Source: Bacillota bacterium
Lineage (GTDB): Bacteria; Bacillota; UBA994
Length of the DNA: 64,000 nt
Reading direction: 5' to 3'
Assembly: GCA_018333655.1 (NCBI GenBank)
Contig: JAGXTJ010000021.1
Span: 1-64,000, forward strand
How positions within the stretch are numbered: the first letter of the stretch is position 1; the number at the start of each line of letters is the position of its first letter. The notes below the pieces were generated by a model that ran no database searches, was not told the origin of the DNA, and saw nothing but the letters and a program-made list of their open reading frames with translations. The position numbers and the translations under genes were made by a program. Positions 4,394 to 54,361 of this stretch are shown here, piece after piece.

Positions 4394-5095
4394 TTACAGT
4401 CCAGTCATTGCATCATGGGATGTGTGCGGCAATCTCGCCGCTCTTCTGCTACTAGGGTTAGGCAGAGTAACTGCGGCACCCTCGGCCACAAGACGAAAAC
4501 CATGTTTGCGATGCAATTGGTCGAAAGCAAGGGGCATATCGCGCTGCAAGTAGGCAGGCCCTGCATCGAGCCCGGCATCGGACACAATACGCAGTCGCAC
4601 TTCGGGTGCCTCGCCTCCTTTGGTCCAATCACTGACAAGCCACGGCTCATCCCTTAAAGCTGGCAAGAGAGCCTTGCCGAAACGTATGCCTAATGCAACT
4701 TGTCCTTCAGGTGGGCAAGAGCGCCGACCAAGAGCTAGAGGAAAAACGGGATTCTTTAGGGCCTGTTCGATACTTATGAGCAGTTGTTCGTCTCCTTCTA
4801 GCCCAGCGAGAAATACCGCATCTGACAAGTAGTAGCGATTTGTGACATAGGCAGCTTCTAAGCTCTTAGCAGTGTGAAAATCTCGCAGCAAAACCCCTTC
4901 TTTGTCTGCCCGCACTCCGAAACAGAGGCGAGCTAAATCATCTATGCTTTCATTGCGCCGCCTACCGAGTGCCGCTGCTACAAGTCCCAAAACTCCGCTT
5001 TTGGACGGCATGCGCTCAGTCCCCCGCCGCTCGAATTTGGCATCTACCCCCCATGACTGCAAGGGGGCAGCTAGGCGCATAAGCAAGGTGCTCAT
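4394..5095 (-). CDS. cas5e: Cas5e (CasD) Cascade subunit
   Basis: A 233-aa RAMP protein that caps the 5' handle of the crRNA in Cascade. The N-terminus MSTLLMRLAAPLQSWG and the following RRGTERMPSKSGVLGLVAAALGR match the family signature (LQSWG, T..PSKSGVLGLLAAALG). Its start codon overlaps the cas7e stop as TAATG, so expression is likely coupled. Length is normal for I-E Cas5. Confidence 0.96.
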   Translation of the reverse strand: MSTLLMRLAAPLQSWGVDAKFERRGTERMPSKSGVLGLVAAALGRRRNESIDDLARLCFGVRADKEGVLLRDFHTAKSLEAAYVTNRYYLSDAVFLAGLEGDEQLLISIEQALKNPVFPLALGRRSCPPEGQVALGIRFGKALLPALRDEPWLVSDWTKGGEAPEVRLRIVSDAGLDAGPAYLQRDMPLAFDQLHRKHGFRLVAEGAAVTLPNPSSRRAARLPHTSHDAMTGL

Positions 5096-6189
5096 TAATG
5101 ATCCCTGCCGTTACCTAGTTGCTCTGTGAGCTCGGTGCCTAGCGAATCTAACAGCTCAGCAAACTGCTGCACTTGGCCAAGCTCCGACAACCCCTCTCCG
5201 GCAACAAAAGACCGCACAGGCGTGGTGGCAAAGCTCGCATACAGTTTCTTAGCGTGGCCGACTAGCCTGCCTAAGGATGCCGCCACATAACCATCTTCGC
5301 TAGCGGGCACAGGTCTCTCAAAGGCACCAACTAGGTTTAGGGGTTGGTCCTTGCGCAGTGTCACCAGGACCGCCTCAGGCAAAGTGCGGTTCGCAAATGT
5401 ATTTTGCTTGCCTGTGGGCATGGAGTGGACAAAGGCACGCAAGAAGTGACGTACAGCTGCTACAGTATCATCGCCCAGTTGCTTATTCAGTTCATGCACC
5501 GCCACAGTAGCATAGCGATAGAGCGTTGCTGAGTTATATTCTACTGTGCCTAAATGGCTGGCCCCAGCATTGTCTTCCTCCGCCAAGTCATCGACTGCGG
5601 TAAAGTAATCGTATTCAATACTCACCTTGTGAGTAGATATGCTGTGTGCGACTTGTGAGCACGCATCCGTGTTTAGTGATGGGTCATCAGCAACCATGCG
5701 CCCAAACAAGGCCACATCGATGCTTGGTGACTGCCTAAGCGCATTCTGCACCTTAGCCTTAGCCTCCTTAGAGGGCTTTTCTTTAACGACTTCACCATCT
5801 GAAACTGCGAGCTCTGCTAGAGCTTTAGCTTGGGCGCTACTAATAAAGAAGAGCGCATCAGTTCCCTTTTCTGCTGATTTAATCTTAAGGCCTGCTGTCT
5901 CAAGTATGCGCTGCGCTAACTTTGCGGCTTCACTTTTTGGGTCAAGAACGAGTATTTCTTTCGCTATTAACCCGACGATGTTCTTGGTACGAAAGGCCAA
6001 CTCATTTGTAGGAAGTGCTTCTTTAAACGTTAACCGCATAGCCCTTTTCCAACTCTGCGAAGAAACGCGCGCCCGCACTACCCCACCATAGGTTGCCGTC
6101 TTAGGGCTACCGGTGTCGTCTCGGTTAATGCAGCTAGGCGGAACGGATTGCAGCACATGCACATCCACATAGAGAATCGAGTTTTTCAT
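5095..6189 (-). CDS. cas7e: Cas7e (CasC/Cse4) Cascade backbone subunit
   Basis: A 364-aa RAMP protein that forms the six-copy backbone along the spacer part of the crRNA. Family marks are the N-terminal LQSVPPSCINRDDTGSPKTA, then YGGVVRARVSSQSWKRAMR, and the central HKVSIEYDYFTAVDDL and AGASHLGTVEYNSATLYRYA blocks. It lies between cse2 (14-bp gap carrying an AGGAGG-type site) and cas5e. There is no sign of damage. Confidence 0.97.
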   Translation of the reverse strand: MKNSILYVDVHVLQSVPPSCINRDDTGSPKTATYGGVVRARVSSQSWKRAMRLTFKEALPTNELAFRTKNIVGLIAKEILVLDPKSEAAKLAQRILETAGLKIKSAEKGTDALFFISSAQAKALAELAVSDGEVVKEKPSKEAKAKVQNALRQSPSIDVALFGRMVADDPSLNTDACSQVAHSISTHKVSIEYDYFTAVDDLAEEDNAGASHLGTVEYNSATLYRYATVAVHELNKQLGDDTVAAVRHFLRAFVHSMPTGKQNTFANRTLPEAVLVTLRKDQPLNLVGAFERPVPASEDGYVAASLGRLVGHAKKLYASFATTPVRSFVAGEGLSELGQVQQFAELLDSLGTELTEQLGNGRDH

Positions 6190-6203
6190 TTAACTGCCTC
6201 CTT

Positions 6204-6806
6204 TTATTCCTGTTGGGGACCGGCTTCTTTATCGCGGGAGACATCAGTACGATAAAAATCCTGTCCCCACTTTAGTCTTATGCCGTCGCGTGCCTCAGCA
6301 AACTGATACCAATACAGCTCTTCCGCTAGCTTACAGTAGTCTAGCGGTATGCTGCTGGCTTTAAGGAGCTGGACAAAGCCACGCAGATGCCACGACAACC
6401 TCTCAAAACTATCCGCCATGGCTACAATGTTAAACCGCCTTCGTACGGCATCTGCCTTGTCGGTGTTTCCCTCTCGCAGCTGCCTTGCACTATGGCCGAG
6501 CGTATTGCCTCGGTGATTCATGTTTTGATTTAGCGGGTCCCTACCTTGTTGGTGCAGGGAATAAAGGGTCAACGCGACATGGATGGCCCATTCACCCTGG
6601 GTGGGAGCCTCGCCCTGACTTATGAGACTTTCGGGTAGCTCACTTAGAGTTACTTCCCACAGCGCCGGCTGGCTCCCCGGCAACTTGCCCACACCATTGC
6701 GCAAATGAGCCAGTTGGGCTTTTACAGCCGAGGGACTAGGGTTACTAGCCAAGCCGACTATTTTCCTCTCCACAAACACACCTACTTGCCTAGCCTTTTC
6801 TATCAT
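6204..6806 (-). CDS. casB: Cse2 (CasB) small Cascade subunit
   Basis: A 200-aa, mostly helical protein assigned by position and by the blocks LAHLRNGVGKLPGSQPALWEV and FNIVAMADSFERLSWHLRGFVQLL, typical of Cse2. Two copies normally line the belly of Cascade and stabilise the target R-loop. It overlaps the end of cse1 by 17 bp, implying coupled translation. Confidence 0.93.
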   Translation of the reverse strand: MIEKARQVGVFVERKIVGLASNPSPSAVKAQLAHLRNGVGKLPGSQPALWEVTLSELPESLISQGEAPTQGEWAIHVALTLYSLHQQGRDPLNQNMNHRGNTLGHSARQLREGNTDKADAVRRRFNIVAMADSFERLSWHLRGFVQLLKASSIPLDYCKLAEELYWYQFAEARDGIRLKWGQDFYRTDVSRDKEAGPQQE

Positions 6807-8406
6807 GCCTACTTCCTCCTTTCAACGCTTCCTTACTGTTAATAGCATAGAGAAAGCGGTTAAATGCTTCAGGCGCCGTGCACTGCCGAGCCGAGTCACC
6901 TTCTTTCACCATGCGCCCAGAGAATGCCTGTGGCCCAACCTTTTGAGTTAGCTCCCTCCCTAAGTTACGGACGATGCGCTGCGCATTCGACCACCATTTT
7001 TCGCACTGCTGATCAATATCGTCATTGCTTGGGTTAAGCTCCTCCAACCAGTGACGAAAGGGACGGTCTAAACGAAAGTATGCCTGCTCTTTGGCCTCGT
7101 TTCGTGATGCAGCGCTGTTTAAGTCGCCACTTGCTGTAGCAAGCCTCTGTGCCAACTCCCCAACTTGCTGCACAAGTCTTTCGGTCACCTCGATTTCATC
7201 TGCTATGCGCTCTACCCAGTTACTGCCAAGACCTGACAATAACTCTGAGTTTATAGCCAGGGAATCGCTGAAAACATCATCGACAAAAAAGTCTTTGTCG
7301 CCATAATTGACCGCAGCTACTTCGAAAAGAGTGTGTTTCTTCGCAAGCAGCTCCTCCCTTTTTAGGCGAGCCAGCCAGTTGACTACCCCAGGGCGGCGGC
7401 CCCCTTCGCGCTGCGCGATAAGCACCGCGAAATCTCGCCACAACTGACGCGATACGTCATGTCGCCGCGGAGTGTGCCCTAGAGAAACATCTTTCCCTTT
7501 GCGTGGGGCGCGCCACACAGTCATTTGCTCACTAAAAGCATTTGTTTTCTCAAAAAAATCGCCGCCTAGCAGGGCAAAGCCGATCACCTTTTCGCCTTCT
7601 CTTTGCAGCAGCAAGCGGCGCGACTGCAAAGTCAGCAATTCGGATAAATTGTCTGGCATCTCAATCTGCACTCTCTCTTGACTTCGCACATCACTCTCCC
7701 AGAGAGGTTTTTCGGCCCCCCATAGATCATCTGTACCGTCTCTGAGTAAGACCAAATTAAGTACCAGAGTTTGCAGTAGATTATCCCCCACGGCTGTGAT
7801 AAGGCCAAGCTTGCCTAACCAGCCCGCTCCCGGGCTAGGTAGTCCCTTCGATCGGGGTTTGGCCGAGGTGTCGTCATAGGCATTAACATAGATTAGCCAA
7901 CGGGCTGCCTCGGCATAGCTTAATTGCGATTTAGCCGCACCAGTACGTTTAGGGAAGAGACGCAATTTGTTGCTACTCTCAGATAACTCCCCGTTAAGCT
8001 TCGCGCCAGTGTACTCAGTAGCCTCTTTTATAGTCGCCACCTGGTAAAACGGCTGCGTGGGGTGAAACAGCCAAAAACGATCTAGAAAGACCATGAGGTA
8101 TTTCCTAACTAGTTCCACAGGGAAATCGCCGCGGTGCCAAAGTGATTGCCACCGGTCTAGCGCTTCGCGAGGTGACTGCACCGGCTTAAAATCGCCGGAC
8201 ACATCATACCTAGCGAATACCGCATGCAGCACAGCTAGCAACAATCTTAAAATTGCCACATCCTGCGTCCGCAGTTCACCGGCTAACCCCCGCCATAGAT
8301 GTGCCCGTCTGAATACATCCAGCAAGGAGACTTCTTCCGTTTGGCCATCGTGCTTCATGACGAGAATCCATGGTTCATGAAGCAAGTTAAACTCTTTTTC
8401 CGCCAA
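6790..8406 (-). CDS. casA: Cse1 (CasA/Cas8e) large Cascade subunit
   Basis: A 538-aa large subunit that recognises the PAM and recruits Cas3. The N-terminus FNLLHEPWILVM and the segment GLPSPGAGWLGKLGLITAVGDNLLQTLVLNLV match the family. Length is normal (about 500 aa). It follows cas3 by two bases, so cas3 and the Cascade genes are almost certainly one transcript. The PAM-contacting loop cannot be defined reliably by eye. Confidence 0.95.
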   Translation of the reverse strand: MAEKEFNLLHEPWILVMKHDGQTEEVSLLDVFRRAHLWRGLAGELRTQDVAILRLLLAVLHAVFARYDVSGDFKPVQSPREALDRWQSLWHRGDFPVELVRKYLMVFLDRFWLFHPTQPFYQVATIKEATEYTGAKLNGELSESSNKLRLFPKRTGAAKSQLSYAEAARWLIYVNAYDDTSAKPRSKGLPSPGAGWLGKLGLITAVGDNLLQTLVLNLVLLRDGTDDLWGAEKPLWESDVRSQERVQIEMPDNLSELLTLQSRRLLLQREGEKVIGFALLGGDFFEKTNAFSEQMTVWRAPRKGKDVSLGHTPRRHDVSRQLWRDFAVLIAQREGGRRPGVVNWLARLKREELLAKKHTLFEVAAVNYGDKDFFVDDVFSDSLAINSELLSGLGSNWVERIADEIEVTERLVQQVGELAQRLATASGDLNSAASRNEAKEQAYFRLDRPFRHWLEELNPSNDDIDQQCEKWWSNAQRIVRNLGRELTQKVGPQAFSGRMVKEGDSARQCTAPEAFNRFLYAINSKEALKGGSRHDRKG

Positions 8407-8408
8407 TT

Positions 8409-11162
8409 CTATTCCTCCTTTCTCTGTATCAAGCCCATATTTTGGTCATAGGTCAACTTGTACCCGCAAAGAGTAGCCGAAAAATCGCTATCCAAAATCA
8501 AAAATAACTCTCCTGCCAGCCAAGGCGATCTCTGCCACTCACGTAGTTCCGCTGCACTTAATACTTCTAGTTCTTTAATGGCCTTATCAATGTTTCGCAC
8601 CGAACATATCACCGGGGGCAGCCTAACCCGGCAACGGGCCAGCGCGCGACCCATTTCAAAACCAGGCGGCGAATCATGCGAAATCGACTGGCCCCCTTCA
8701 AGCCATGGTAAAAAGTGAAATCGGCCATCCGTCTTCTTCTGCACTAGGATTACTTCAATAGATTCATCGCCATCGCGCACGGCAGCTTCCCCACTCTTTT
8801 CATTGCGGTCAGATGCAGGCGTTTGTAGCCAACCAATCAGGTTGCCATCTGGCCAGGGAGGCGTGAGCCGAAAATCCTTCGCGCGTTTTTCTTGGCTCGC
8901 AATGAAGCTCTTATGCTCGGCCAATGCTTTGCCATAAGCTGGATTGTACGGCAAAGCCGGCTCATCCTCACGGTAGACCTCTTGCACTAAGCGCGAAATG
9001 TCATCAGGCAGGCTAATTTGCTTTGGCAGGCAAGCTTGCGTGCGCAACAAGAGGTACTGCCCATACACTGCCGCAGAGCCCTTCTCAAACACGCCCTCCT
9101 CCCCTGCTCCCAATATAAAACACTTGGCCTGCGCCAATTTTGGCGGTCGGCTTCTATGGTGGCGATGTAGCCGGCCAATTCGCTGTAGCAACAAATCCAT
9201 GGGGCATAGATCGGTAACCAATAAGTCAAAGTCGATGTCTAGCGACTGCTCAAGGACCTGGGTGCCGATAACAATGCGCTCCGCTGGCCTCGTCACACCT
9301 TGGGTTTCCTTGCCTAATTCCCCAAGTAGCTCCTGCTCCAATCTAGACCGGTCTGGAGCGAGAAAACGCGAGTGCAGGATGCGCACTCTAGCAGGTGAGA
9401 AGCTATCGCGCAAAGATGCTGCCAGCTGCTGTGCACGACCAACGGTGTTCACGATTATCCCCACACAGCCGCCATCTGAAAGCAAATCTCTGAGCTTGTC
9501 CGTTAACTCTTCTTCTGAAATGTGTTCTACCTGCACGGTATTGGGAAGACCATCATGGGGTAGAGGTGTATGGTAAACTTCCCCTTTGTCAGTGTAAGTC
9601 ACTAGGGGATATTCTTGGCTTGTCACCCGGGCTGGTGCTCGGGTGGGGACTGATGTCCTTTTGCCAAGAGGGTCTGTCTGCCGCTGCTGCGCAGGGCGCT
9701 CATCAAGATATGCTTCCACTAAGGCTTGTCGTTGCTTGGCAGGCAGGGTGGCCGACAACACTATTACCGGCACCTGGTAGGCGCCGAACCATCGCAAGGC
9801 CATGAATAGGTATTGACTCATGTAGGCATCGTAGGCGTGGCATTCGTCTATTATTACGACCTTGTTAGCTAGGCCGAGATGACGCAACATAACATGTTTT
9901 TGCTTCAGGGCAGACATTAAGACATGGTCGACTGTTCCTACGCCGAAATCGTCAAGCAGGCCCTTTTTTCTACCGGCGAACCATTGGTGCACAATTACGC
10001 GGCTCTCTTCGTCCTCGTTTGGTGCGATGCGTGTTAGACCCTCATAAGTGGCATTAAACTGTGCCTTGCCATGCATCAGGCGCAACGAACTTGTCTCGTT
10101 ACCAGTTGCTTGCCTAAGCCAAGCTAAAAAGCGCGGGAAAATACCGTCGGAGGTAGACTGAGTGGGGAGTGCAAAAAACACGCCCTTACGCCTAGACTTA
10201 GCAGCGTATATTTCAGCAGCCACGAGCGCGGCCTCTGTCTTGCCCACGCCCATCGGCGCTTCAAGCACCAACAAACCGGTATTTTCTACGCCTTTCGCCA
10301 CTTCTATAACGGCTCTCTGCAGCGCATTGGCCGCAAAGCCAAAACGCTCCACAAACAGATCAGAATTCATCCATTTGTTGCTCGCATGCCAAGAATGAGG
10401 CAACGAAAGCTTTTGCCACGCCACCTTGATGCGGTTCTTTGGGCACGGCATAACAATGCTATCTACAGTTAGATATGGAAAGAACTCCTCGCTACTGGCA
10501 ATCCAGTCAACCAAGATGACCAGACCACTCAATAAAACCTGAACAGGCATGCTAGGTTGTGGCAAGTCGGCCATGGTTTTATAGCCCGCAAGACTGAGAG
10601 CAAAACCGCAGACCTCCTGTTGCACAGCCTCCCAAGCTACTTTACCGGCGCGCCCCATGTGATAGTTCTCGGGGTACTGTGTTACTTGGTCATAGCCATC
10701 ATCTGTATCAGAGGGCCTACCGTGATGGGCACCTAAGGTCGCCGCAATGCGTCTATCGCATCCTTGCTGTCGCAGCAGTACTTGGGTAGCTAGAGCATGG
10801 GGCGTCTTAGAGGCACTTTGAAAATCGGCGGTATTCTGCATAACAAGGCCAGAGCTTTGCGTTCGCTCAAAAATTACTCTGTCCAGCTCATTGCTGTTAG
10901 AGCGCTTAGCTTGAAAAACTGGCGTGGCCTTGCCAAGGTCATGGGCGGCTGCTAAGAATATCAAGAGCTGCTCGCCACATGCGCCATTCTGTAGGCCAGA
11001 ATTAATGCTCTTTTTGACACCATCTGACACCCAGTGATTCCATAACTTTTTAGCCGTAGATGCGGCGTCTGTCATATGTACTGTTAGGGGCAACCACTGG
11101 TCGTTGCCGTCCTTAGATTTCTTTGCCCACAAACTTTGCGCCATAGGAGAGAATACGCTCAT
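8409..11162 (-). CDS. cas3: Cas3 HD nuclease-helicase
   Basis: A 917-aa effector that unwinds and degrades target DNA after Cascade binding. The N-terminal HD domain has H29, H74-D75 (AAHDLGK), H146-H147 (GAHHGR) and D219. The SF2 helicase follows, with Walker A G305-T309 (APMGVGKTEA), DECH at 439-442 and SATLP at 470-474; a C-terminal domain runs to 917. The chosen ATG has AAGGA about 9 bases upstream on its strand, whereas the internal ATG at codon 7 has no ribosome site. First gene of the cas operon. Confidence 0.97.
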   Translation of the reverse strand: MSVFSPMAQSLWAKKSKDGNDQWLPLTVHMTDAASTAKKLWNHWVSDGVKKSINSGLQNGACGEQLLIFLAAAHDLGKATPVFQAKRSNSNELDRVIFERTQSSGLVMQNTADFQSASKTPHALATQVLLRQQGCDRRIAATLGAHHGRPSDTDDGYDQVTQYPENYHMGRAGKVAWEAVQQEVCGFALSLAGYKTMADLPQPSMPVQVLLSGLVILVDWIASSEEFFPYLTVDSIVMPCPKNRIKVAWQKLSLPHSWHASNKWMNSDLFVERFGFAANALQRAVIEVAKGVENTGLLVLEAPMGVGKTEAALVAAEIYAAKSRRKGVFFALPTQSTSDGIFPRFLAWLRQATGNETSSLRLMHGKAQFNATYEGLTRIAPNEDEESRVIVHQWFAGRKKGLLDDFGVGTVDHVLMSALKQKHVMLRHLGLANKVVIIDECHAYDAYMSQYLFMALRWFGAYQVPVIVLSATLPAKQRQALVEAYLDERPAQQRQTDPLGKRTSVPTRAPARVTSQEYPLVTYTDKGEVYHTPLPHDGLPNTVQVEHISEEELTDKLRDLLSDGGCVGIIVNTVGRAQQLAASLRDSFSPARVRILHSRFLAPDRSRLEQELLGELGKETQGVTRPAERIVIGTQVLEQSLDIDFDLLVTDLCPMDLLLQRIGRLHRHHRSRPPKLAQAKCFILGAGEEGVFEKGSAAVYGQYLLLRTQACLPKQISLPDDISRLVQEVYREDEPALPYNPAYGKALAEHKSFIASQEKRAKDFRLTPPWPDGNLIGWLQTPASDRNEKSGEAAVRDGDESIEVILVQKKTDGRFHFLPWLEGGQSISHDSPPGFEMGRALARCRVRLPPVICSVRNIDKAIKELEVLSAAELREWQRSPWLAGELFLILDSDFSATLCGYKLTYDQNMGLIQRKEE

Positions 11163-11883: not shown

Positions 11884-12498
11884 ATGCGTACACTTTTGCT
11901 CACTGGTTTTGAGCCCTTTGGCGGCGAAAAGACGAACCCCTCGCTCGAGGCAGTAAAGCGCCTTGACGGCTACGTGGTTGGGGATATCGCCGTAAAAGCT
12001 GTAGAACTACCTGTCGCTTGGGAGCGCGTAACCTCTCTGCTTGAGAACGCTCTCCTCGAACATTCACCCACCTTCGTCATTGCCGTGGGCCAGGCTGGGG
12101 GCCGCGCCAAGATCGCGGTCGAACGAATCGGCATTAATATCTGTCATGGTAAAGATAACTACGACGTTGCCCGAGGCGGCGAACCGGTCATCCAAGGCGA
12201 GGCTGATGGTTACTTTTCTTCGCTGCCTGTAGAGTCGCTCGCTTTGGCCATCAACAAGGTTGGTGTTCCTGCTTATGTCTCAAACAGTGCGGGCACGTAC
12301 CTCTGCAACTTCACCCTCTACACGCTAGAGCACCTCATTCGCTCACGACATCTCGCCATCTCCTCTTGCTTTATCCATATCCCCTACCTGCCTGAACAGA
12401 CTACAGACAAAGCCGAGCAGCACCTGACTCCCAGCATGTCGCTAGAAACTATTGTCACGGGACTACGCGCGGCCATTGATGACTTGGCAGAACACTAA
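11884..12498 (+). CDS. pcp: Pyrrolidone-carboxylate peptidase (pyroglutamyl peptidase I)
   Basis: A 204-aa cysteine peptidase that removes N-terminal pyroglutamate from peptides. It begins MRTLLLTGFEPFGGEKTNPS, the family hallmark. The catalytic triad is visible as E80 (VERIGINI), C141 (SNSAGTYLCNF) and H165 (SCFIHIPYLP). The ATG at 11884 is chosen because GGGAGG precedes it and it falls just after the acetyltransferase stop. A rho-independent terminator follows about 65 bp downstream. Confidence 0.96.
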   Translation: MRTLLLTGFEPFGGEKTNPSLEAVKRLDGYVVGDIAVKAVELPVAWERVTSLLENALLEHSPTFVIAVGQAGGRAKIAVERIGINICHGKDNYDVARGGEPVIQGEADGYFSSLPVESLALAINKVGVPAYVSNSAGTYLCNFTLYTLEHLIRSRHLAISSCFIHIPYLPEQTTDKAEQHLTPSMSLETIVTGLRAAIDDLAEH

Positions 12499-12564
12499 TT
12501 GTGAAGCGGGAGGCATCAACATGAAGCCATTGATCTCTCACCTATGCTTTGACACGCAAAAAAA

Positions 12565-12594
12565 GAGGCTGCATTAAAATGTGCAGCCTCTTTT
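12565..12594. terminator. Bidirectional rho-independent terminator
   Basis: GAGGCTGCA and TGCAGCCTC form a 9-bp stem around an 8-nt loop, with TTTT on the plus side and a run of seven T on the minus side. It lies between the convergent pcp and ATP-grasp genes and can serve both. Confidence 0.9.
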
Positions 12595-12617
12595 CACGCT
12601 CTAAAGTTGACGTTAAA

Positions 12618-13580
12618 CTAGGCTCGCCGCAAGGCGCAATGCAAGAGGTGGTCGATAAGTCCGACGTAAGATAGCCCTGCTGCGCGAGCTGCCTTGGGGT
12701 AGTCGCTGTAGCTCGGGTCTAGACCAGGCAAGGTGTTGACATCAATGACATAGGGAAGCCCTGCGGTAGTTACACGAAGATCAATGCGCGCATAGTCGCG
12801 ACATCCTAGGGCCTGGAAGGATCCTAGCACAACCTCTTCCATGCGCCGGTATAGTTGAGGTTCGAGATCGACCGGACACTTTGTAACTACCGCGTCCTGA
12901 GATTTCACGTGGTGATCATAAAAACCATCTCTGGTCGCAAACATAATCTCAATGGGCGGTAAAATCCTTGTTCGCTCGCCCCCTAAAACCCCCACCGTGA
13001 ATTCACGTCCGACAACAAACTCTTCTACTAAGGCCGGTTGTCGAAACGACGTAACTACTGTTCGTACCATCTCGGCAGCGTCTGCCGCTGAATTAGCAAC
13101 ACTTTTGGCAGAAATGCCAATGCTAGACCCTTCATGTTCTGGTTTCACAATCACTGGGTACTTTAAGGTGCTGGGAAGCGGAGCATGTTCGCTATCGGCG
13201 ACGGCAAAGTGTGGTGTGGGGATATTATGATGCCCGAGCACCATCTTGGTGAGAGGCTTGTAAAGGGCCAGTACATGGGCGCAGTGGCCGCTTCCAGTAA
13301 AGGGAATACGGGCTAGCTCCAGCATCGCTGCTACTTGGGGCTGACTGGACTTGTCGTGAATGCCAGTACAATTGTTAAAAATAACATCTGGCCTGATCTC
13401 ACCTAGCTGGCGCAACATGTCAATGTCGCCCGGCACCAGGTGTACCTCATAGCCAAGCTCAGCAATTGCGTCCTTTAGGGCTTCCGTCGTTACATTCATT
13501 TGTAGAGTTCCGTGCGGATTCGCAACACTGCCTTGTTTGTCGACTTCAACCGTGTATGCCAACGCAACGCGCAAGGGCAT
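12618..13580 (-). CDS. D-alanine-D-alanine ligase-like ATP-grasp enzyme
   Basis: A 320-aa ATP-grasp ligase resembling Ddl. The N-terminal lobe carries GIHDKSSQPQVAAMLELARIPFTGSG; the ATP-grasp core has YPVIVKPEHEGSSIGI, ALVEEFVVGREFTVGVLGG and, at the end, DYARIDLRV...VIDVNTLPGLDPSYSDYPK with the Mg-binding D, E/N-type positions. It is the last gene of a minus-strand operon with a B12-binding protein and an opine dehydrogenase. That context argues for joining an amino acid or opine-like acid in secondary or amino-acid metabolism rather than housekeeping peptidoglycan synthesis, but the substrate is unknown. Confidence 0.85.
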   Translation of the reverse strand: MPLRVALAYTVEVDKQGSVANPHGTLQMNVTTEALKDAIAELGYEVHLVPGDIDMLRQLGEIRPDVIFNNCTGIHDKSSQPQVAAMLELARIPFTGSGHCAHVLALYKPLTKMVLGHHNIPTPHFAVADSEHAPLPSTLKYPVIVKPEHEGSSIGISAKSVANSAADAAEMVRTVVTSFRQPALVEEFVVGREFTVGVLGGERTRILPPIEIMFATRDGFYDHHVKSQDAVVTKCPVDLEPQLYRRMEEVVLGSFQALGCRDYARIDLRVTTAGLPYVIDVNTLPGLDPSYSDYPKAARAAGLSYVGLIDHLLHCALRRA

Positions 13581-19226: not shown

Positions 19227-19290
19227 CTGGTTTATTCACCATTTTTTGCAGGATTCCTCCTTGGCCGCATACAGCGGTAGCGGGCCACTA

Positions 19291-19410
19291 GTAGAACCAT
19301 TGCCTACACGTCTCGCTATGCACGCCGCAAGTTACAGTGGCATTACAAAACATACCAGAACCACATGAGGGCAAGAGCAACCTATATACTTGGCTAAAAT
19401 ACGGCAAATG
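19291..19410. repeat. 120-bp direct repeat, left copy
   Basis: Matches 21821-21940 at about 116 of 120 positions, running from GTAGAACC to ACGGCAAATG. The right copy forms the upstream region of a DIP1984-family gene, so this left copy puts the same upstream sequence in front of the nuclease/metallo-hydrolase pair. Confidence 0.95.
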
Positions 19411-19457
19411 TGGAACTGCGGCTGCTCAGAACCAAATCGATTATTAGGAGGCGAATA

Positions 19458-20495
19458 GTGCATATGCTTAATCTTAGCGACGCAAACAACGCTGTAATCG
19501 AAAAGGACGAGATAATCCGCCGACTTAAAAAATACAGTGCTGCCTCAAGGGTGAGCCTTCCCGGAGATATGGCATGTTCCATCAAGGATAAGGTTTTGCG
19601 GGTAAACATTCAGCACCCAACCCAGAGAATGCAGGACGACAGCGTCGCTTTCGAAGGATGGGTACTAATATTAAAGCACTGGCTTGCTAAAGAGATCGAT
19701 TCTGTTGTACTCGATTTCGAAGCACGAGAGGACTTGGTTCAAAAATACGGCTACGCTGAAGCTTGTCACTATAACCGCTTTCTGTACAGAGTATACAATA
19801 TGACGAGGCTTTTCCCTGGTTGGTTCTTGGTCGACCAAAGCAAAAGCGGTGTCATATTCAACTTTATGCATTGGTTGCGAGCAAATGAGATGACCCTGAA
19901 CAAGTCACGACAAGAAAGAACAGACCAAAGCGGCACGCCACTATGGGAGCGACAAACCGAGGCGTGGTTTGTAAACCATGAAGGCAAATCGCTTCTCGCT
20001 AAACACTGGAATATCGACGAGAGCAAGTTGTTTAATCAGCTGCCAACCGGCGTCTTTATCGATAAAATTGCGGCAAGCAATGCCGTGTTTCCGCGCGGAG
20101 CCAGCGCTATCGATATGTGGGGCATCGGCAAGGACGGTCAGACATTGCATCTTATCGAGCTCAAGCGTGGAGACAATCAGGCCCTTGGAGTTATCGGCGC
20201 AACGCTCTTTTACACCGCGCTAATGTACGACACCTGTGTGGCCAAGGAGTCTATCTTCTCCTTCGACAAATCTGGTCACGTGGCAGACACAAGCGATATT
20301 ACAGCAATCAATAATAATGGCAGTAAATTCGGCAAGATTGCCACGCATATTCTTGCGGAAAAATACCATCCCTTATTTTCGGACGCTGTCGCGGCACTGA
20401 TACGTGAAGGGTTGAAGAACATGGGGGGCGAGTTCTATAAAGCAACCTACAACTTCGATAAAAGGTCTATTGTAGATGCAGGTAACAATCCATAG
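19458..20495 (+). CDS. PD-(D/E)XK-type nuclease-like protein of a two-gene cassette
   Basis: A 345-aa protein counted from GTG 19458, chosen because AGGAGG stands 6 bases before it; an in-frame GTG at 19410 has no such site. The C-terminal half carries a restriction-endonuclease-like core: E168 (RQTEAW), D219 (GASAIDMWGI), then E234-x-K236 (LHLIELKRG), the order and spacing of a PD-(D/E)XK active site. The N-terminal half is not recognised. The gene overlaps the next by 20 bp, so the two products are probably made together. It lies between 120-bp direct repeats. DNA cleavage is predicted from the motif; biological role, possibly defence, is inferred. Confidence 0.7.
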   Translation: MHMLNLSDANNAVIEKDEIIRRLKKYSAASRVSLPGDMACSIKDKVLRVNIQHPTQRMQDDSVAFEGWVLILKHWLAKEIDSVVLDFEAREDLVQKYGYAEACHYNRFLYRVYNMTRLFPGWFLVDQSKSGVIFNFMHWLRANEMTLNKSRQERTDQSGTPLWERQTEAWFVNHEGKSLLAKHWNIDESKLFNQLPTGVFIDKIAASNAVFPRGASAIDMWGIGKDGQTLHLIELKRGDNQALGVIGATLFYTALMYDTCVAKESIFSFDKSGHVADTSDITAINNNGSKFGKIATHILAEKYHPLFSDAVAALIREGLKNMGGEFYKATYNFDKRSIVDAGNNP

Positions 20496-21774
20496 AGGAA
20501 CGCATGAAATCGGCGGAACTTTCGTCGAACTCAGGTCGGGTAAAAATAGGCTTCTCCTTGACGCTGGGTATCCGCTAAGCCTGGGGGGAAGGCCGCTTCC
20601 TGATCAACTAGCCTTATATTCAGACGAAAAGGTGCTCGAGAGCGGTATGCTGCCGAGGATTAAGGGGCTGTATAGATGGGATGAACCGGCGTTTGATGCG
20701 GTTATTATTTCTCATGCCCATATCGACCACTATGGCTTGCTGCATTATGTCAATTTTGCCATTCCTGTATATTTGTCCAGAGGCACTCGAAAACTTATTG
20801 AGGTATCAGCTCTTTTCCGGGCGGAAAGATATTGTGCGGCGAAAGCTTATGAATTTGACATGTACAAACCGTTTCAAATTGGCGGCTTCAGAATCATGCC
20901 CTTCTTGATGGATCACTCAGCCTTTGACGCAGCGGCATTTGAGATATCCAGCAAAGAGAAAACGATTCTTTATACCGGCGACTTTCGAGGACATGGCCGA
21001 AAGGGCCACTGCCTTGAAAGATTTATTAGCAAAGCTAAGAAATGTGCTGACGCACTCTTAATCGAAGGAACGCTGCTTGGACGGCAGGATGATATGGTGA
21101 TTACTGAGCAGGAGATCGAAGCCCTGCTTGTAAAGAAGATGGATAAATTAATAGGGCCGTTGTTGTTCCAAACGTCAAGCCAGAATATTGATCGCATAGT
21201 CAGCTTTTATCGTGCCGCCTCGCGACTTGGTAGGATATTCGTTGTAGACCTGTATACCGCCAACGTCTTATATGCGCTTAAGCTGCTTGGTGATAATCAG
21301 GTGCCCTATCCGTCCGAAGACTACCCAAACATCAAGGTATTCTACCCTTATCGGCTTACGCTAATGACATATAATAAAATCGGCAAAGAATATGCTAAGC
21401 GGTTTTCCCCTTATCATATCTCGAGAACTAAGTTGAACCGGGAACAGAACAATATTGTTATGGCCGTTCGCCCTTCAATGCGCATCGATATCGAAAGATC
21501 TGGGCTCAAAGACGGGCTGTTCGTTTATTCGCTATGGACTGGATACCGTAGCAGTGCCTATCAACAAGGGTTTGAAGAGTATTTAACAAGGGCAGGCTTT
21601 TCGTCAGAAATCCTGCACACTAGCGGGCACGCCACCGTGTCTGACATTCGCCGAGTGATTGCTGGCCTGGAGCCTAAGCAAATAATACCTATCCACACAA
21701 TGTCACCGGACTCGTTTGTTGGCCTATCGGATCGTATTTCTCTAAAGGAAGATGGAGTAAGCTTCGACATATAG
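20476..21774 (+). CDS. Metallo-beta-lactamase/beta-CASP-like hydrolase (RNase J-like) of the cassette
   Basis: A 432-aa protein of the metallo-beta-lactamase fold. Metal ligands are visible: HAHIDH at 80-85, H147 (MDHSAFDA), D169 (LYTGDFRGHG), and near the C-terminus HTSGHATVSDIRR and IIPIHT, as in RNase J and other beta-CASP nucleases. It starts HEIGGTFVEL, like this group. RNA or DNA cleavage is likely. The start ATG lies within the end of the nuclease gene with only a weak AAAAGG upstream, suggesting translational coupling. At 432 aa it is shorter than housekeeping RNase J (about 550 aa), so it is probably not the cell's main RNase J. Confidence 0.85.
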   Translation: MQVTIHRGTHEIGGTFVELRSGKNRLLLDAGYPLSLGGRPLPDQLALYSDEKVLESGMLPRIKGLYRWDEPAFDAVIISHAHIDHYGLLHYVNFAIPVYLSRGTRKLIEVSALFRAERYCAAKAYEFDMYKPFQIGGFRIMPFLMDHSAFDAAAFEISSKEKTILYTGDFRGHGRKGHCLERFISKAKKCADALLIEGTLLGRQDDMVITEQEIEALLVKKMDKLIGPLLFQTSSQNIDRIVSFYRAASRLGRIFVVDLYTANVLYALKLLGDNQVPYPSEDYPNIKVFYPYRLTLMTYNKIGKEYAKRFSPYHISRTKLNREQNNIVMAVRPSMRIDIERSGLKDGLFVYSLWTGYRSSAYQQGFEEYLTRAGFSSEILHTSGHATVSDIRRVIAGLEPKQIIPIHTMSPDSFVGLSDRISLKEDGVSFDI

Positions 21775-21820
21775 GGAGTAAACGTCAAAGTGTTTTAGTG
21801 ATTGTTATAGACAGAGACAA

Positions 21821-21940
21821 GTGGAACCATTGCCTACACGTCTCGCTATGCACGCCGCAAGTTACAGTGGCATTACAAAACATACCAGAACCACATGAGG
21901 GCAAGAGCAACGTATATACTTGATTAAAATACGGCAAATG
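21821..21940. repeat. 120-bp direct repeat, right copy
   Basis: Right partner of 19291-19410; mismatches are at the fourth base and in the stretch CGTATATACTTGATT (left copy CCTATATACTTGGCT). It contains TATACT (21915-21920), a possible -10, and ends directly before the AGGAGG of the DIP1984-family gene, so it is the native upstream region of that gene. Confidence 0.95.
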
Positions 21941-21954
21941 AGGAGGCGATCAAC

Positions 21955-22413
21955 GTGAAGCTAGCTGAAGCCTTAATCATGCGAGCAGACCAGCAACGCA
22001 GGCTGTCGAGCCTGCGCGAGCGACTAGTGCGCGTGGCCAAAGCCCAAGAAGGCGAAAAGGCCCTCGAAGACCCTGCCGAGCTGCTACTAGAGGTGAACCG
22101 CGTCCTGCTGCACCTCACAAACCTAATGCAGCGCATCAATAGGACTAATTCATCAATCTTGATCGATGAGCATCGGACGCTTAGCGATGCACTAGCCGAA
22201 CGAGACGCCCTAGGGATGAAGCGCAGCGTTCTTAACGCCCTCGTCGATGCTGCCGCTATCACGCACGACAGGTTTAGCAAGTCTGAGATAAAGTACTTCG
22301 CAACAGTAGATGTGCAGGTACTGCAAAAAGAGATTGACGGCCTTGCGCAAGCGCATCGCGAGTTAGACACAAAAATACAAACGCTTAACTGGACCACAGA
22401 CCTAGCTGAATAA
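21955..22413 (+). CDS. DIP1984 family protein
   Basis: A 152-aa helical protein. MKLAEALIMRADQQRRLSSLRERL, a central EDPAELLLEVNRVLLHLTNLMQRINRTNSS and LSDALAERDALGMKRSVLNALVDAA are the conserved blocks of the DIP1984 family, whose function is not established. The GTG start is preceded by AGGAGG at 8 bases. Its promoter region was duplicated around the upstream nuclease cassette. Confidence 0.85.
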   Translation: MKLAEALIMRADQQRRLSSLRERLVRVAKAQEGEKALEDPAELLLEVNRVLLHLTNLMQRINRTNSSILIDEHRTLSDALAERDALGMKRSVLNALVDAAAITHDRFSKSEIKYFATVDVQVLQKEIDGLAQAHRELDTKIQTLNWTTDLAE

Positions 22414-22650: not shown

Positions 22651-22940
<290 letters not shown>

Positions 22941-23006: not shown

Positions 23007-23029
23007 ACATGTTAAGCGAGTCTTGTCTT

Positions 23030-23220
23030 CCTCTCTTTTCCACGCCTCTGTGACCTCTGTGGTTGATATTGTCTCCTATCCCTGTAGCACGGGGAAGGCA
23101 CGTTTTTTACCACAGAGCACATAACTGGATGTTAGAGATTGGATATTAGAGGTTAGAAAGGGGAAGGCACGTTTTTTACCACAGAGGTCACAGAGAAGTA
23201 TGGTTGAAATCGTATCCTAT
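23030..23220. repeat. Dispersed intergenic repeat, copy A
   Basis: A non-coding stretch built from CCACAGAG/CTCTGTGG modules: CTTTTCCACGCCTCTGTG..., two copies of GGCACGTTTTTTACCACAGAG, a GATTGGATATTAGAGGTTAG block and a terminal TGGTTGAAATCGTATCCTAT. The same modules occur in inverted order at 32047-32250. Confidence 0.85.
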
Positions 23221-23292
23221 TGATGCCATGGTGTAGAGCTACCTACCTCGTTAGGCGTTGCTGAGAATGCAGGTTGCCTCTCTGTGTTTGTA

Positions 23293-37675: not shown

Positions 37676-38235
37676 TCATACATCCCGACGGTTGAAAGCG
37701 TGGACTGCAGCCATGCGCATGACAACTATGTACCCTGCGGTGTAGAGCAACATCCGGTAGCTGGGGGTAGAGTGGCTGCCAAAAGGGCCAAGGGCTTTAA
37801 AGATTTCGGCGGCGGCAGGGTCGGTAATCCTTGCATCACCCCCCACCATGAAGTGTAGTCCGGCACCATACAAGGTAAGGAAGGCCAAGGTGAGAAGCCC
37901 TGCGACCAAAACAACTCGCTTGCGCAAAGCCTCTTTAAACGTAAAGACGGCCATCAACCACATGTCTTTTCGCCCTCCTTTGCCAAGCCCACCAGTTCTA
38001 GTGCCGCTTGCGAGCTACGTTTGGCCGATCTATAGTCTAGTCCTGCTAAGCGAGCGTGAAAGTTGACGAGCTCGCTCCCTTTTAGCCAGCCGTGCAGGCG
38101 AAAGTTCTCGGGCAAGAAGGGCACGCCAATGAGCGCACTGCGCAGAGAGGCCAGATCCACAATAATATCGGTTCGCGTCTGACCGGCGAGCGTAGCGGAC
38201 AGATTAAGCCTTGCGGAAGATGCTCAAAAACTGAG
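37676..38235 (-). pseudogene. Collapsed copy of the anti-sigma/ABC ATPase/permease operon
   Basis: In minus-strand order it contains fragments of the anti-sigma gene (38100-38235, like 43022-43560), the ABC ATPase (37975-38110, like 42420-42558) and the permease N- and C-termini (37676-37963, like 41700-41890 joined to 41024-41150). The intact operon at 41024-43922 is 2.9 kb; here about 560 bp remain. The ATPase/anti-sigma joint falls in GGCGAAAGTTCTC, a 13-bp word present in both intact genes, and a second joint in CTTTTC-CCCTCCT (the EGEK region). Walker A, signature and most membrane helices are gone, so no function is expected. Confidence 0.88.
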
Positions 38236-41023: not shown

Positions 41024-41890
41024 TCATACATCCCGGCGGTCGAAAACGTGGACTGCAGCCACAAGCATGACAACTATATACCCCGCGGTGTACAGCAGCA
41101 TCCAGTCGCTCGGGGTAGAGTGACTGCCAAATGGGCCAAGGACATGGGCGGGGTTAAAGAAAACCATATCAGGAGAGGTGCCTTGTGCCAGGCTGTCGAC
41201 CACTGTAGCCACTACCCGCCGGTACACCGCATCTGCTGGCAGTATAAGACTGGTAACGACACCGATATAGACGGCGGCGGTGCTGCCTAGCATTACTCCG
41301 ATTTGTTCGATCATGCCGCCCAAGACGGACAGCGCGTAAAGCCCAAACGCCAAGACGCCATTGCCCAAGGTAGGCAACTTAGTGGTCCCGAGCATGGTAA
41401 CGGACAAAAGCACTAGGGGCTTTAAGGCAAACAAGGCGAGTGCTACCCAACGGCCCGGCAGGAGCAGGCCCGTCTGCCAGTACACAAGGCCGACGAGCGC
41501 AAGGAAGAAGAGGGCGGAGTAAGTGACCAGCATGGCTGCCAAGCCGAAGTACTTACCAAGCAGCAGGTCGCGGCGGGTAAGGGGCCGAGCCGCCAGCGGG
41601 TAAAGAGTGCCGTTCTCAATTTCCCCAGCAATACTACCTACGGCGGCTAGAATGGCTAGACCCGCCACCAAGAAGCTGGCAAGGTAAATACCCATGCTAA
41701 ACACGGTAAGCGCCTCTAGAAGCTTAAAGACATTGGCGGCGGCAGGATCGGCAATCCTGACATCCATCCCCAACGTGAAGTGCAGCCCCGTACCGTACAG
41801 GATGAGGAAGGCCAAGGTGAGAAGCACTGCGACTAAGACCACTCGCTTGCGCATAGCTTCCTTAAAGGTAAAAACGGCCATCAACCACAT
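41024..41890 (-). CDS. ABC transporter permease (ABC-2 type, NosY-like)
   Basis: A 288-aa membrane protein with about six hydrophobic segments, starting MWLMAVFTFKEAMRKRVVLV, typical of ABC-2/NosY permeases, and containing GSIAGEIENGTLYPLAARPLTRRDLLLGKYFG. It overlaps the ATPase gene by 10 bp and is last in an operon with an ECF sigma factor and its anti-sigma factor. Likely exports or senses an envelope-active compound; the substrate is unknown. A collapsed copy lies at 37676-37963. Confidence 0.9.
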   Translation of the reverse strand: MWLMAVFTFKEAMRKRVVLVAVLLTLAFLILYGTGLHFTLGMDVRIADPAAANVFKLLEALTVFSMGIYLASFLVAGLAILAAVGSIAGEIENGTLYPLAARPLTRRDLLLGKYFGLAAMLVTYSALFFLALVGLVYWQTGLLLPGRWVALALFALKPLVLLSVTMLGTTKLPTLGNGVLAFGLYALSVLGGMIEQIGVMLGSTAAVYIGVVTSLILPADAVYRRVVATVVDSLAQGTSPDMVFFNPAHVLGPFGSHSTPSDWMLLYTAGYIVVMLVAAVHVFDRRDV

Positions 41891-42798
41891 GTCTTTTCGC
41901 CCTCCTGCATTAAATGGACATAAACGTCCTCAAGGGAATTGTGGTGCGGCGTCACTTCGTAGATGCGGCAGCCCTGCGCCGCGAGTTTGGCCACGACATC
42001 GGCGATGTCCTCAGGACTTGGCGCGCGGAGCGTGAGCAGGTCCCCTTCTATTTGCAGTCTAGGGTAGTCCCGTTGCAGTTCTACGGCGAGCAAAACAGGT
42101 AGACCACTTAATTTAATGGCGACGGCAGTCGATGCCGCTTGCAGTTCATGTGGTTTGCCATCGGCGACCACTAGGCCACGGTTAATAATCGACACGCGGT
42201 CGCAGACCTGCTCCACCTCGCTTAAGAGATGGCTGTTCAAGAACACGGTCTTCCCAGCCGCTTTAAGGGAGAGGAGAATTTCACGTACTTCGCGACGCCC
42301 CAAAGGATCGAGCGCCGAGGTAGGCTCATCTAGAAATACCACCCGCGGGTCGCCCACCAGCGCCGCGGCCAGCCCTAGACGCTGCTGCATTCCCTTGCTG
42401 TAATTAGCGACGAGCTTTTCACCCTCCTTGGCCAAGCCCACCAATTCTAGTGCCGCTTGCGAGCTGCGTTTGGCCGATCTATAGTCTAGTCCTGCCAAAC
42501 GAGCATGAAAGTTGACGAGTTCGCTCCCTTTTAGCCAGCCGTGCAGGCGAAAGTTCTCGGGCAAAAAGCCTATTTGTCGGCGACTCCGCGTGTCTGTTGG
42601 CGCGTACCCAGCCACCAGTGCCGTCCCAGCTGTGGGGTAGACGAGACCTACCAACATTTTAACGAGGGTGCTCTTGCCCGCACCGTTTGGGCCTAAGAAG
42701 CCGAAGATCTGCCCCTCCTCCACGGAGAGGCAGATGTCTCGGCAGGCTACTTGTTGTCCGTAGACCTTGGTAAGATGCGCCACTTCAATAATCGCCAC
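41881..42798 (-). CDS. ABC transporter ATPase
   Basis: A 305-aa ATPase: Walker [18 protein letters not shown], signature NYSKGMQQRLGLAAAL, Walker B RVVFLDEPTSALD and H-loop FLNSHLLSE. The C-terminal about 90 aa form the extra domain common in drug/bacitracin-type ABC-2 systems. The ATG overlaps the anti-sigma stop codon. A 45-residue fragment is duplicated at 37975-38110. Confidence 0.94.
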   Translation of the reverse strand: MAIIEVAHLTKVYGQQVACRDICLSVEEGQIFGFLGPNGAGKSTLVKMLVGLVYPTAGTALVAGYAPTDTRSRRQIGFLPENFRLHGWLKGSELVNFHARLAGLDYRSAKRSSQAALELVGLAKEGEKLVANYSKGMQQRLGLAAALVGDPRVVFLDEPTSALDPLGRREVREILLSLKAAGKTVFLNSHLLSEVEQVCDRVSIINRGLVVADGKPHELQAASTAVAIKLSGLPVLLAVELQRDYPRLQIEGDLLTLRAPSPEDIADVVAKLAAQGCRIYEVTPHHNSLEDVYVHLMQEGEKTCG

Positions 42799-47147: not shown

Positions 47148-48425
47148 CTAAACGCCCGCAGATGTCTGCTCGCTACGTACCCCTTGCGGCCCGTATGTCA
47201 AACGGCGCCACACCCACTCGGCGGGGCCTTGGCTGTAACGCGCCAACCACCAGCGACTATAAATAATCTGGGAGGTGTATATGCCGATGGTCATTAAAGG
47301 CATGTAGACGATGCTGATGCCCATTAGCCCTAAGCCATGGCCATAGAACAGCCAAGCCAAGGCTATGCACTGCACTAAGTAGTTAGTAAGTGCCATACGC
47401 CCGAGAGCCGCGAAGCCTGCAAACAGCCAGGACAGTGCTCCTCTATGCCACAGCAGTATAATACCTGTTACGTAGAACAGCGAGATAAACGGCGTGCTCA
47501 CTTCACGCAAAAAGACGGCGGCCGTTCCGCTCAGCACAGGGGTTAGAAAGGCCTCCGCCCAACCTAACTGCAGGCCAACATGGGCCACCGACAGTACAGC
47601 ACCGACGACACCGCCTACGTACATGGCTTTGCGTATCTGCGGCAGATGCTCCTTTATGCGCTGAAAAACGCCAAGCTTGCCGACGTATAGACCGATGAGG
47701 AAGAGTCCTAGTATGCGCGGGATCATGACAATGGCGTTTATCAGAACTAGGGGGAACTCGTTACGCAGGCGATAGCTTACTACCTGCCAGTACGAACCCT
47801 GCGTATACACAGTGCGTATTTCATTCAATCTAGCCTCGAACGCGGCTTCCATGGCCGCGACATCGGCAGGCGCTAGACCATCTAAGGTGGCGTTCGCGAA
47901 CGTGGGCAGCGCAAAAATTAAGTAAATGGAACCCGCGACGATGACAAATGACAAGAGCATTAAGCCCACCGCCCAAGCACGTAGGCGAGGTAACTTTGTT
48001 TCTCTAAAGAGTAGCAGCAAAAAACCGATAAGCGCATAGCTGGCTAGCACATCGCCCCACCACACAAAGATAATATGCAGCACGCCGATACCAAACAACA
48101 CCGCGAGGCGAGACACCAACAACCGGCGATTAGTTGCGGTTTGCCCTTCGCCACGGCTTAAGAACAAGTGAAACCCTAAACCAAAGAGAAAAGCAAAGAT
48201 GGTGTAGAATTTGCCCAAGAAGAGCACTTGTACTATCCACGCGGTGATGCTCGCAGGGCCTGCGACGAGTAGCGCTGGCTGAAAGAGCACATCCATGTCC
48301 GTATTAAACTCCATCAGCAACTGGTTAATCATGACCATGTTCACGAGCAAAACACCAAGCAGAGCAAACCCCCGAATAATGTCTAATACCGCAATCCTTT
48401 CCTTGACAGCTACTGGTCCTACCAT
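47148..48425 (-). CDS. DUF418 family polytopic membrane protein
   Basis: A 425-aa protein with about ten hydrophobic segments; ERIAVLDIIRGFALLGVLLVNMVMI and the C-terminal VQCIALAWLFYGHGLGLMG...YSRWWLARYSQGPAEWVWRRLTYG are the DUF418 hallmarks (YeiB-like). Function unknown. ATG 48425 is preferred because AAAGGAGG precedes it. It lies after a second membrane-protein gene in a locus with an ABC ATPase and GntR regulator; a shrunken copy is at 53530-54139. Confidence 0.88.
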   Translation of the reverse strand: MVGPVAVKERIAVLDIIRGFALLGVLLVNMVMINQLLMEFNTDMDVLFQPALLVAGPASITAWIVQVLFLGKFYTIFAFLFGLGFHLFLSRGEGQTATNRRLLVSRLAVLFGIGVLHIIFVWWGDVLASYALIGFLLLLFRETKLPRLRAWAVGLMLLSFVIVAGSIYLIFALPTFANATLDGLAPADVAAMEAAFEARLNEIRTVYTQGSYWQVVSYRLRNEFPLVLINAIVMIPRILGLFLIGLYVGKLGVFQRIKEHLPQIRKAMYVGGVVGAVLSVAHVGLQLGWAEAFLTPVLSGTAAVFLREVSTPFISLFYVTGIILLWHRGALSWLFAGFAALGRMALTNYLVQCIALAWLFYGHGLGLMGISIVYMPLMTIGIYTSQIIYSRWWLARYSQGPAEWVWRRLTYGPQGVRSEQTSAGV

Positions 48426-48510
48426 AAACCTACCTCCTTTGTGTGTTCGCCTGCACCTACGGAATGTTACGTAATAGGAGGGCTTTCGTTTCACTAGCCC
48501 TGAGACAAAG

Positions 48511-53529: not shown

Positions 53530-54139
53530 TTAAACGCCCGCAGATGTCTGCTCGCTACGTATCCCTTGCGGCCCATAAGTCAGACGTCGCCACACCCACT
53601 CGGCGGGGCCTTGGCTGTAACGCGCCAACCACCAGATACTATAAATAATCTGGGAGGTGTATATGCCGATGGTCATTAAGGGCATGTAGACGATGCTCAT
53701 GCCCATTAGCCCCAAGCCATGGCCATAGAACAGCCAGGACAGTGCTCCTCTATGCCACAGCAGTATAATACCTGTTACGTAGAACAGCGAGATAAACAGC
53801 GTGCTCACTTCACGCAAAAAGACGGCGGCCGTTCCGCTCAGCACAGGGGTTAGAAAGGCCTCCGCCCAACCTAACTGCAGGCCAACATGGGCCACCGACA
53901 GTACCGAGCTTGCCGACGTATAGACCGATGAGGAAGAGACCTAGTATGCGCGGGATCATGACAATGGCGTTTATCAGGACTAGGGGCAACTCGTTAAGCA
54001 GGCGAGGCAGCTTCGTTTCACGAAAGAGCAGCGACTGGTTAACCATGACCATGTTCACGAGCAAAACCCCAAGTAGCGCAAAACCCCGAATAATGTCTAA
54101 GCCCGCAATTCTTTCTTTGACAGCTACCGGTCCAACCAT
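53530..54139 (-). pseudogene. Shrunken DUF418 gene copy
   Basis: Close in sequence to 47148-48425 but only 610 bp long. It has lost at least four internal blocks and is out of frame in the middle (near 53880-53910). One loss of exactly 75 bp lies between two AACAGCCA words (intact gene 47347-47354 and 47422-47429); others meet at AGGCGA and AGCA. Both ends, including MVGPVAVKERIAGLD and the RRLTYGPQG tail, are preserved. Confidence 0.9.
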
Positions 54140-54361
54140 AAACCTACCTCCTTTTGCGTTTGCCTGTATCTATGGAATGTTATGCAATAGAAGGGCATTT
54201 GTTTCACTTGCCCCGAGCCGAAGCCACCGGACCCGTTGTCGAGAACTTCAGCCTTGGGCAATCGCGCAGGAGGACAACCATGAAGCAAAAGTATAGGATG
54301 TAGTCGCAAGCAACTCAGTCTACAATTCCCATTGCCGCAAATTAATTATTTTGAATCGATA

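Follow-up and report, generated by a model that had tools for sequence, protein, structure and literature searches.

A mobile gene pair of an RNase J-like beta-CASP hydrolase and exchangeable PD-(D/E)XK-type nucleases, a candidate conflict module

In the 64,000-nucleotide stretch of a Bacillota genome analysed here (the window), two overlapping genes for nuclease-type enzymes lie between two copies of a direct repeat, and related gene pairs recur on plasmids, in prophage-like contigs, on an integrative mobilisable element and in chromosomes. We propose that they represent a module with a constant RNase J-like beta-CASP hydrolase and a variable PD-(D/E)XK-type nuclease, usually co-translated, with a small protein added in some members. 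On balance, and by a modest preference over the alternatives discussed below, we favour a recurrent conflict module borne by mobile elements, which would act in anti-phage or anti-plasmid defence. The pair is described nowhere in PADLOC 2023, Pfam, NCBIfam, PHROGs or the openly licensed PMC papers searched, which agrees with the preliminary description of this DNA, where no named system with the two genes could be given.

The direct repeats share a 116-bp core on the forward strand, at 19295..19410 (left copy) and 21825..21940 (right copy), with three mismatches near its right end (19382, 19393 and 19394) and one further mismatch at 19293, just left of the core. In the gapless register 19287-19414 / 21817-21944 they are 95% identical at an offset of 2530. 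A 30-mer from the repeat gave 2 exact matches in the window vs 0 in 100 shuffles, and no copies beyond these two were found in the 2.2-Mb genome. The right copy stops at 21940, and the AGGAGG at 21941-21946 is the Shine-Dalgarno of a DIP1984-family (DUF6847) gene (21955..22413, forward strand), which matches NCBIfam DIP1984 with E=5.9e-53 and Pfam DUF6847 with E=2.3e-51. Since the right repeat abuts this AGGAGG, the repeat corresponds to the upstream region of the DIP1984-family gene up to its Shine-Dalgarno, and the left copy is its duplicate; the gene itself lies outside the module and was missing from the 14 relatives checked. Both the bracketing of the gene pair by direct repeats and their origin in this upstream region had been claimed before and are borne out here.

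Between the repeats, and also on the forward strand, the nuclease gene (19458..20495, 345 aa) and the hydrolase gene (20476..21774, 432 aa) overlap by 20 nt, in keeping with the earlier view of a single overlapping unit. A mechanical start of the nuclease gene falls at 19410, which is the last base of the left repeat and an unlikely start. The start is most likely the GTG at 19458, given that AGGAGG can be read in the sequence at 19446..19451 (forward strand), six bases upstream; with this start the residue numbers first assigned to the nuclease (E168, D219, E234 and K236) are correct. The left repeat copy probably supplies the promoter that now drives the cassette; no consensus promoter was recognised there. 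With a GC content of 0.467, vs 0.53-0.54 for the neighbouring genes and 0.526 for the window, the cassette is richer in AT than the DNA around it. Besides, neither same-genus genome has the nuclease, and only one of 100 relatives does, which upholds the claim that the cassette is foreign to the locus.

The window nuclease carries the D...(D/E)xK catalytic motif of PD-(D/E)XK nucleases, and both of its relatives keep E168, D219 and E234-L-K236 unchanged; for D219 and E234-L-K236, invariance extends to three relatives. A profile of another partner family, family B, matches it exactly over the D219/E234-L-K236 motif. It has no family match in Pfam or the other model sets searched, its best PADLOC 2023 match is PDC-S02 at only E=0.008, and the AlphaFold model, built from two sequences, has a mean pLDDT of 42, too low for use, so the putative PD-(D/E)XK fold is assigned from these motifs.

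Regarding the hydrolase, Pfam matches above cut-off were obtained for Lactamase_B_2 (1e-14) and RMMBL (3e-6), and the metallo-beta-lactamase (MBL) and beta-CASP residues are in place (HAHIDH, H147, D169, E197, H385 and H407). H80, H82, D84, H85, H147, D169, E197, H385 and H407 are invariant across nine hydrolase sequences. Among known beta-CASP enzymes the motif-C histidine marks those that act on RNA; its presence here therefore points to RNA, which would fit RNA turnover too. The protein resembles RNase J and related beta-CASP ribonucleases (TIGR00649) in its MBL and beta-CASP motifs, its RMMBL region and the motif-C histidine. However, it has about 430 aa vs about 550, and it scores 59 bits against a TIGR00649 cut-off of 400; in addition, hydrolases of the window type are mobile and paired with a nuclease, whereas a housekeeping control lies among ribosomal-protein genes. 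A housekeeping RNase J was ruled out by this score and by the genomic context. For the window hydrolase, the best solved sequence relative is the EF2904-type hydrolase (PDB 2az4, E=5e-19). Unlike the window pair, the hydrolase of that type at L053 belongs to a sugar-ABC operon and has no nuclease there, and on the tree this type is joined by L002, a solo paralogue encoded by the host itself.

To place the pair in context, we read 23 loci with a related beta-CASP hydrolase. A D...ExK gene stands immediately upstream of the hydrolase in 15 of the 23, compared with 11 of 243 background ORFs, where the test took the nearest co-directional upstream ORF within 400 nt and the contrast is somewhat inflated because the motif was chosen with the first members already known. 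The overlaps between the two genes are mostly of 4-34 nt, often of 4 nt. Six of the remaining eight loci have a nuclease-like gene elsewhere or a weaker match: the nuclease lies downstream of the hydrolase in L015 and L017; in L016 it is upstream, with its frame running on into the hydrolase gene; in L051 a WG-repeat gene separates the nuclease, two genes upstream, from the hydrolase gene, which is split over two frames; L026 has an E-x-E variant of the motif; and L027 has a candidate nuclease on the opposite strand. The other two are not pairs, namely L021, a Prevotella plasmid with a metallophosphoesterase in the nuclease's place, and L022, with the small protein only. By the same test, no control hydrolase had a D...ExK neighbour, though in one control, the Thermococcus plasmid L057, the hydrolase is closely preceded by a gene annotated as a type I restriction endonuclease. 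Separately, two distant cassettes (L020 from Cereibacter, 9203-9859; L021, 9455-10024) have a calcineurin-like metallophosphoesterase gene that overlaps the hydrolase gene at its end, and metallophosphatases have recently been validated in defence (PMC13092281).

The association also holds in searches that start from the nuclease. A tblastn search with one partner nuclease hit exactly 7 of 72,556 plasmids, and the hydrolase was present in all seven. Within the phylum, the hydrolase is adjacent in four of the seven genomes with a family B nuclease (the other three being a contig edge, a truncated remnant behind the regulator of L047 and a gene on its own) and in two of the three with family C; each of these families was also found without the hydrolase in one genome. 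Hydrolase relatives occur in 8 of 399 genomes of the phylum, window included, and others, at about 32-37% identity, were found on alpha- and betaproteobacterial plasmids and on IMG/VR contigs. A housekeeping setting throughout, which the preliminary description had named as its refutation, was not observed; the relatives occur at scattered sites in chromosomes and on plasmids, prophage-like contigs and an integrative mobilisable element, and several of them adjoin restriction-modification genes or have WYL regulators.

Clustered by BLAST at 1e-3, the nucleases form three families, and three others stand as singletons. The hydrolases of the window and of L007 group with those of L045 and L046 with a support of 100/100, while the nucleases of L045 and L046 belong to a different family from that of the window, a family that L007 carries too. 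Finding one hydrolase clade with differing nuclease families identifies the hydrolase as the constant component; the nuclease, as judged from sequence comparison, is the variable partner, swapped between close relatives. The small third protein is present in five cassettes and has invariant PRGR and D-x-HY motifs. Its structure prediction was of low confidence, and no usable match to a solved structure was found for it or for nuclease families B and C. On small Acinetobacter plasmids, proteins related to the small one have no hydrolase beside them; in L031, L032 and L035 they are in every case closely followed by a Doc-type toxin pair and a macro-domain gene.

L007, in a Desulfitobacteriaceae metagenome-assembled genome, is the sole close relative found by the genome scan, with both genes collinear to those of the window at 76% DNA identity. 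Its cassette is cargo of an integrative mobilisable element, next to genes for a serine recombinase, a MobA-type relaxase and a NikA-like protein, and a DUF6076 gene (4635-5774) heads the cargo. The order in L007 is second nuclease (6294-6998), small protein (7207-7617), nuclease (7638-9017) and hydrolase (9018-10316); the first two have no equivalents in the window cassette, and the window nuclease is without some 120 N-terminal residues of its L007 counterpart. As the DNA similarity begins at the start codon of the window nuclease, the window copy resembles the 3' part of an L007-like cassette and is probably truncated relative to this fuller version. Between the two, dN/dS is 0.16 for the nuclease and 0.12 for the hydrolase, low values that indicate purifying selection on both proteins, mostly predating the insertion.

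One could argue that the window cassette is a decaying fragment with no present function here, whatever its relatives do. The parts found only in L007 and the start of the similarity at the window start codon fit such a history, as do the other segmental duplications and a katG-like remnant in the same window. Yet both frames are intact, the catalytic residues are kept, the nuclease gene has its own Shine-Dalgarno, and the N-terminus of the L051 nuclease (163 aa) is even shorter, so the part missing from the window may be dispensable. The dN/dS values, reflecting mostly the time before the insertion, do not decide the question. We regard decay as unlikely, although it is the alternative that keeps most weight.

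Concerning the arrival of the cassette, no recombinase or transposase gene was found inside its 2.5 kb, and no RNA families or tRNAs were found as insertion targets. Transposon insertion was rejected, as there is no transposase and a 116-bp duplication is too long. The window has two other segmental duplications, in the form of long direct repeats that are 84-99% identical (47149-48440 / 53531-54154 and 37797-38119 / 41724-42568); they resemble partial gene duplications around intervening genes, in a layout like that of the cassette repeats, and suggest that events of this type are no rarity in the genome. Given these and the lack of a recombinase, transposition is no more likely than integration or duplication by homologous recombination. 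A 116-bp duplication with so few mismatches would be accounted for if the cassette had been excised and integrated through the repeat by homologous recombination, or if a segment had been duplicated. The 3' part of an L007-like cassette may, through recombination, have ended up between two copies of the sequence upstream of the DIP1984-family gene. For both genes flanking the cassette no relatives were found in the genus, hence no empty site was seen, and the neighbourhood is shared with relatives only at about 12.7-16.3 kb. Downstream of the locus, 22687-22882 resembles the start of katG (catalase-peroxidase), with DNA conserved in relatives and the rest of the gene missing, and 23026-23276 is a dispersed repeat that matches about 30 other places in the genome and none at threshold in the relatives searched.

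The surroundings of the related cassettes are suggestive of defence. L015 adjoins a restriction-modification set that is type IIG-like, as well as TcmP/DUF5131 genes, which are defence candidates. The cassettes of L023, L026 and L047 are headed by WYL or HTH_11 regulators, which are frequent in defence loci. Some of the plasmids with the pair are mobilisable or conjugative, prophage-like contigs carry L024 and L025, and tail-type genes surround L027. The L047 cassette is flanked by a CRISPR-repeat-like sequence (translated FPAYLRGIET) at 5874-7221 and 11938-12660. The likeness to a defence module proposed in the preliminary description thus finds backing in mobile contexts, restriction-modification neighbours and WYL regulators, from which we infer a defence role as a suggestion. 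The nearby CRISPR locus that it also invoked does exist, as an array and cas-like genes of type I-E appearance at 1-11.2 kb of the window, but about 8 kb of other genes intervene, so it lends little support, and a CRISPR link for the window cassette was rejected.

According to our favoured reading, the exchangeable PD-(D/E)XK partner would recognise the nucleic acid of an invader or make the first cut in it, and its constant beta-CASP counterpart, which has the motif-C histidine, would degrade the product or host RNA. The bolder proposal of an undescribed class of mobile immune system, in which a constant beta-CASP effector and exchangeable PD-(D/E)XK partners would couple DNA recognition to RNA destruction, is one that we put forward tentatively, as falling short of even chances.

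Alternatively, the pair could serve the mobile element itself, through RNA turnover, copy control or the processing of replication or recombination intermediates, with no part in defence. An RNase J-like fold and carriage by plasmids, an integrative element and prophage-like contigs would suit this role, but the pair is rare and patchy among plasmids and phages, it occurs on very different element types and at chromosomal sites too, and the nuclease family varies while the hydrolase stays; we hold this to be improbable. An addiction or toxin-antitoxin-like module, in which one nuclease or the small protein is toxic and the others control it, is more doubtful still. The tight gene overlaps and the Doc-type toxin genes adjoining small-protein relatives on Acinetobacter plasmids speak for it, yet the small protein is absent from most cassettes, the window's included, and both main proteins are enzyme-like, with 200-460 aa, unlike a toxin with a small antitoxin. 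Finally, a counter-defence role, in which a module encoded by phages or plasmids would destroy the signals or nucleic acids that host immunity uses, is very improbable, for in spite of the copies on prophage-like contigs and of other MBL-fold enzymes that are phage anti-CBASS nucleases (PMC9117128), no near-clade hydrolase was found in 50,697 phage records, and WYL/HTH regulators and restriction-modification neighbours suit defence better. Nor did the nuclease, family B or the window hydrolase on its own find any match in viral scans.

Among known systems, beta-CASP enzymes are familiar in immunity from type VII CRISPR. Its Cas14 (NF045584) shares with the module a beta-CASP enzyme in an immune setting, but the window hydrolase reaches 23.3 bits vs a cut-off of 800, and no CRISPR partner genes lie inside the module; the hydrolase had no match among PADLOC 2023 defence models. 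Shedu, PDC-S02, PDC-S11 and HEC-02B, of known or candidate defence, likewise have PD-(D/E)XK-type nucleases, and the partner nucleases match SduA_C (E=0.012), PDC-S02, PDC-S11 and HEC-02B marginally only; to our knowledge, none of these systems includes a beta-CASP partner. In HamM (Hachiman) and Canu, an MBL-fold nuclease coupled to a second enzyme has been repeatedly acquired by different defence loci (PMC12799240), which resembles the present coupling. However, their MBL protein resembles DNA-uptake nucleases and its partner is a trypsin-like or caspase protease (PMC12799240), whereas here the MBL protein is a beta-CASP enzyme and the partner a PD-(D/E)XK-type nuclease. No protease was annotated or matched beside the loci examined, where some of the neighbours were scanned for protease domains.

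The alignments of the hydrolase, the three nuclease families and the small protein suffice to begin search models. If the module is a defence system, it would add one with an RNase J-like core and interchangeable nucleases of the DNA-cutter type, and the swapping of partners would offer a clear handle on which component decides specificity.
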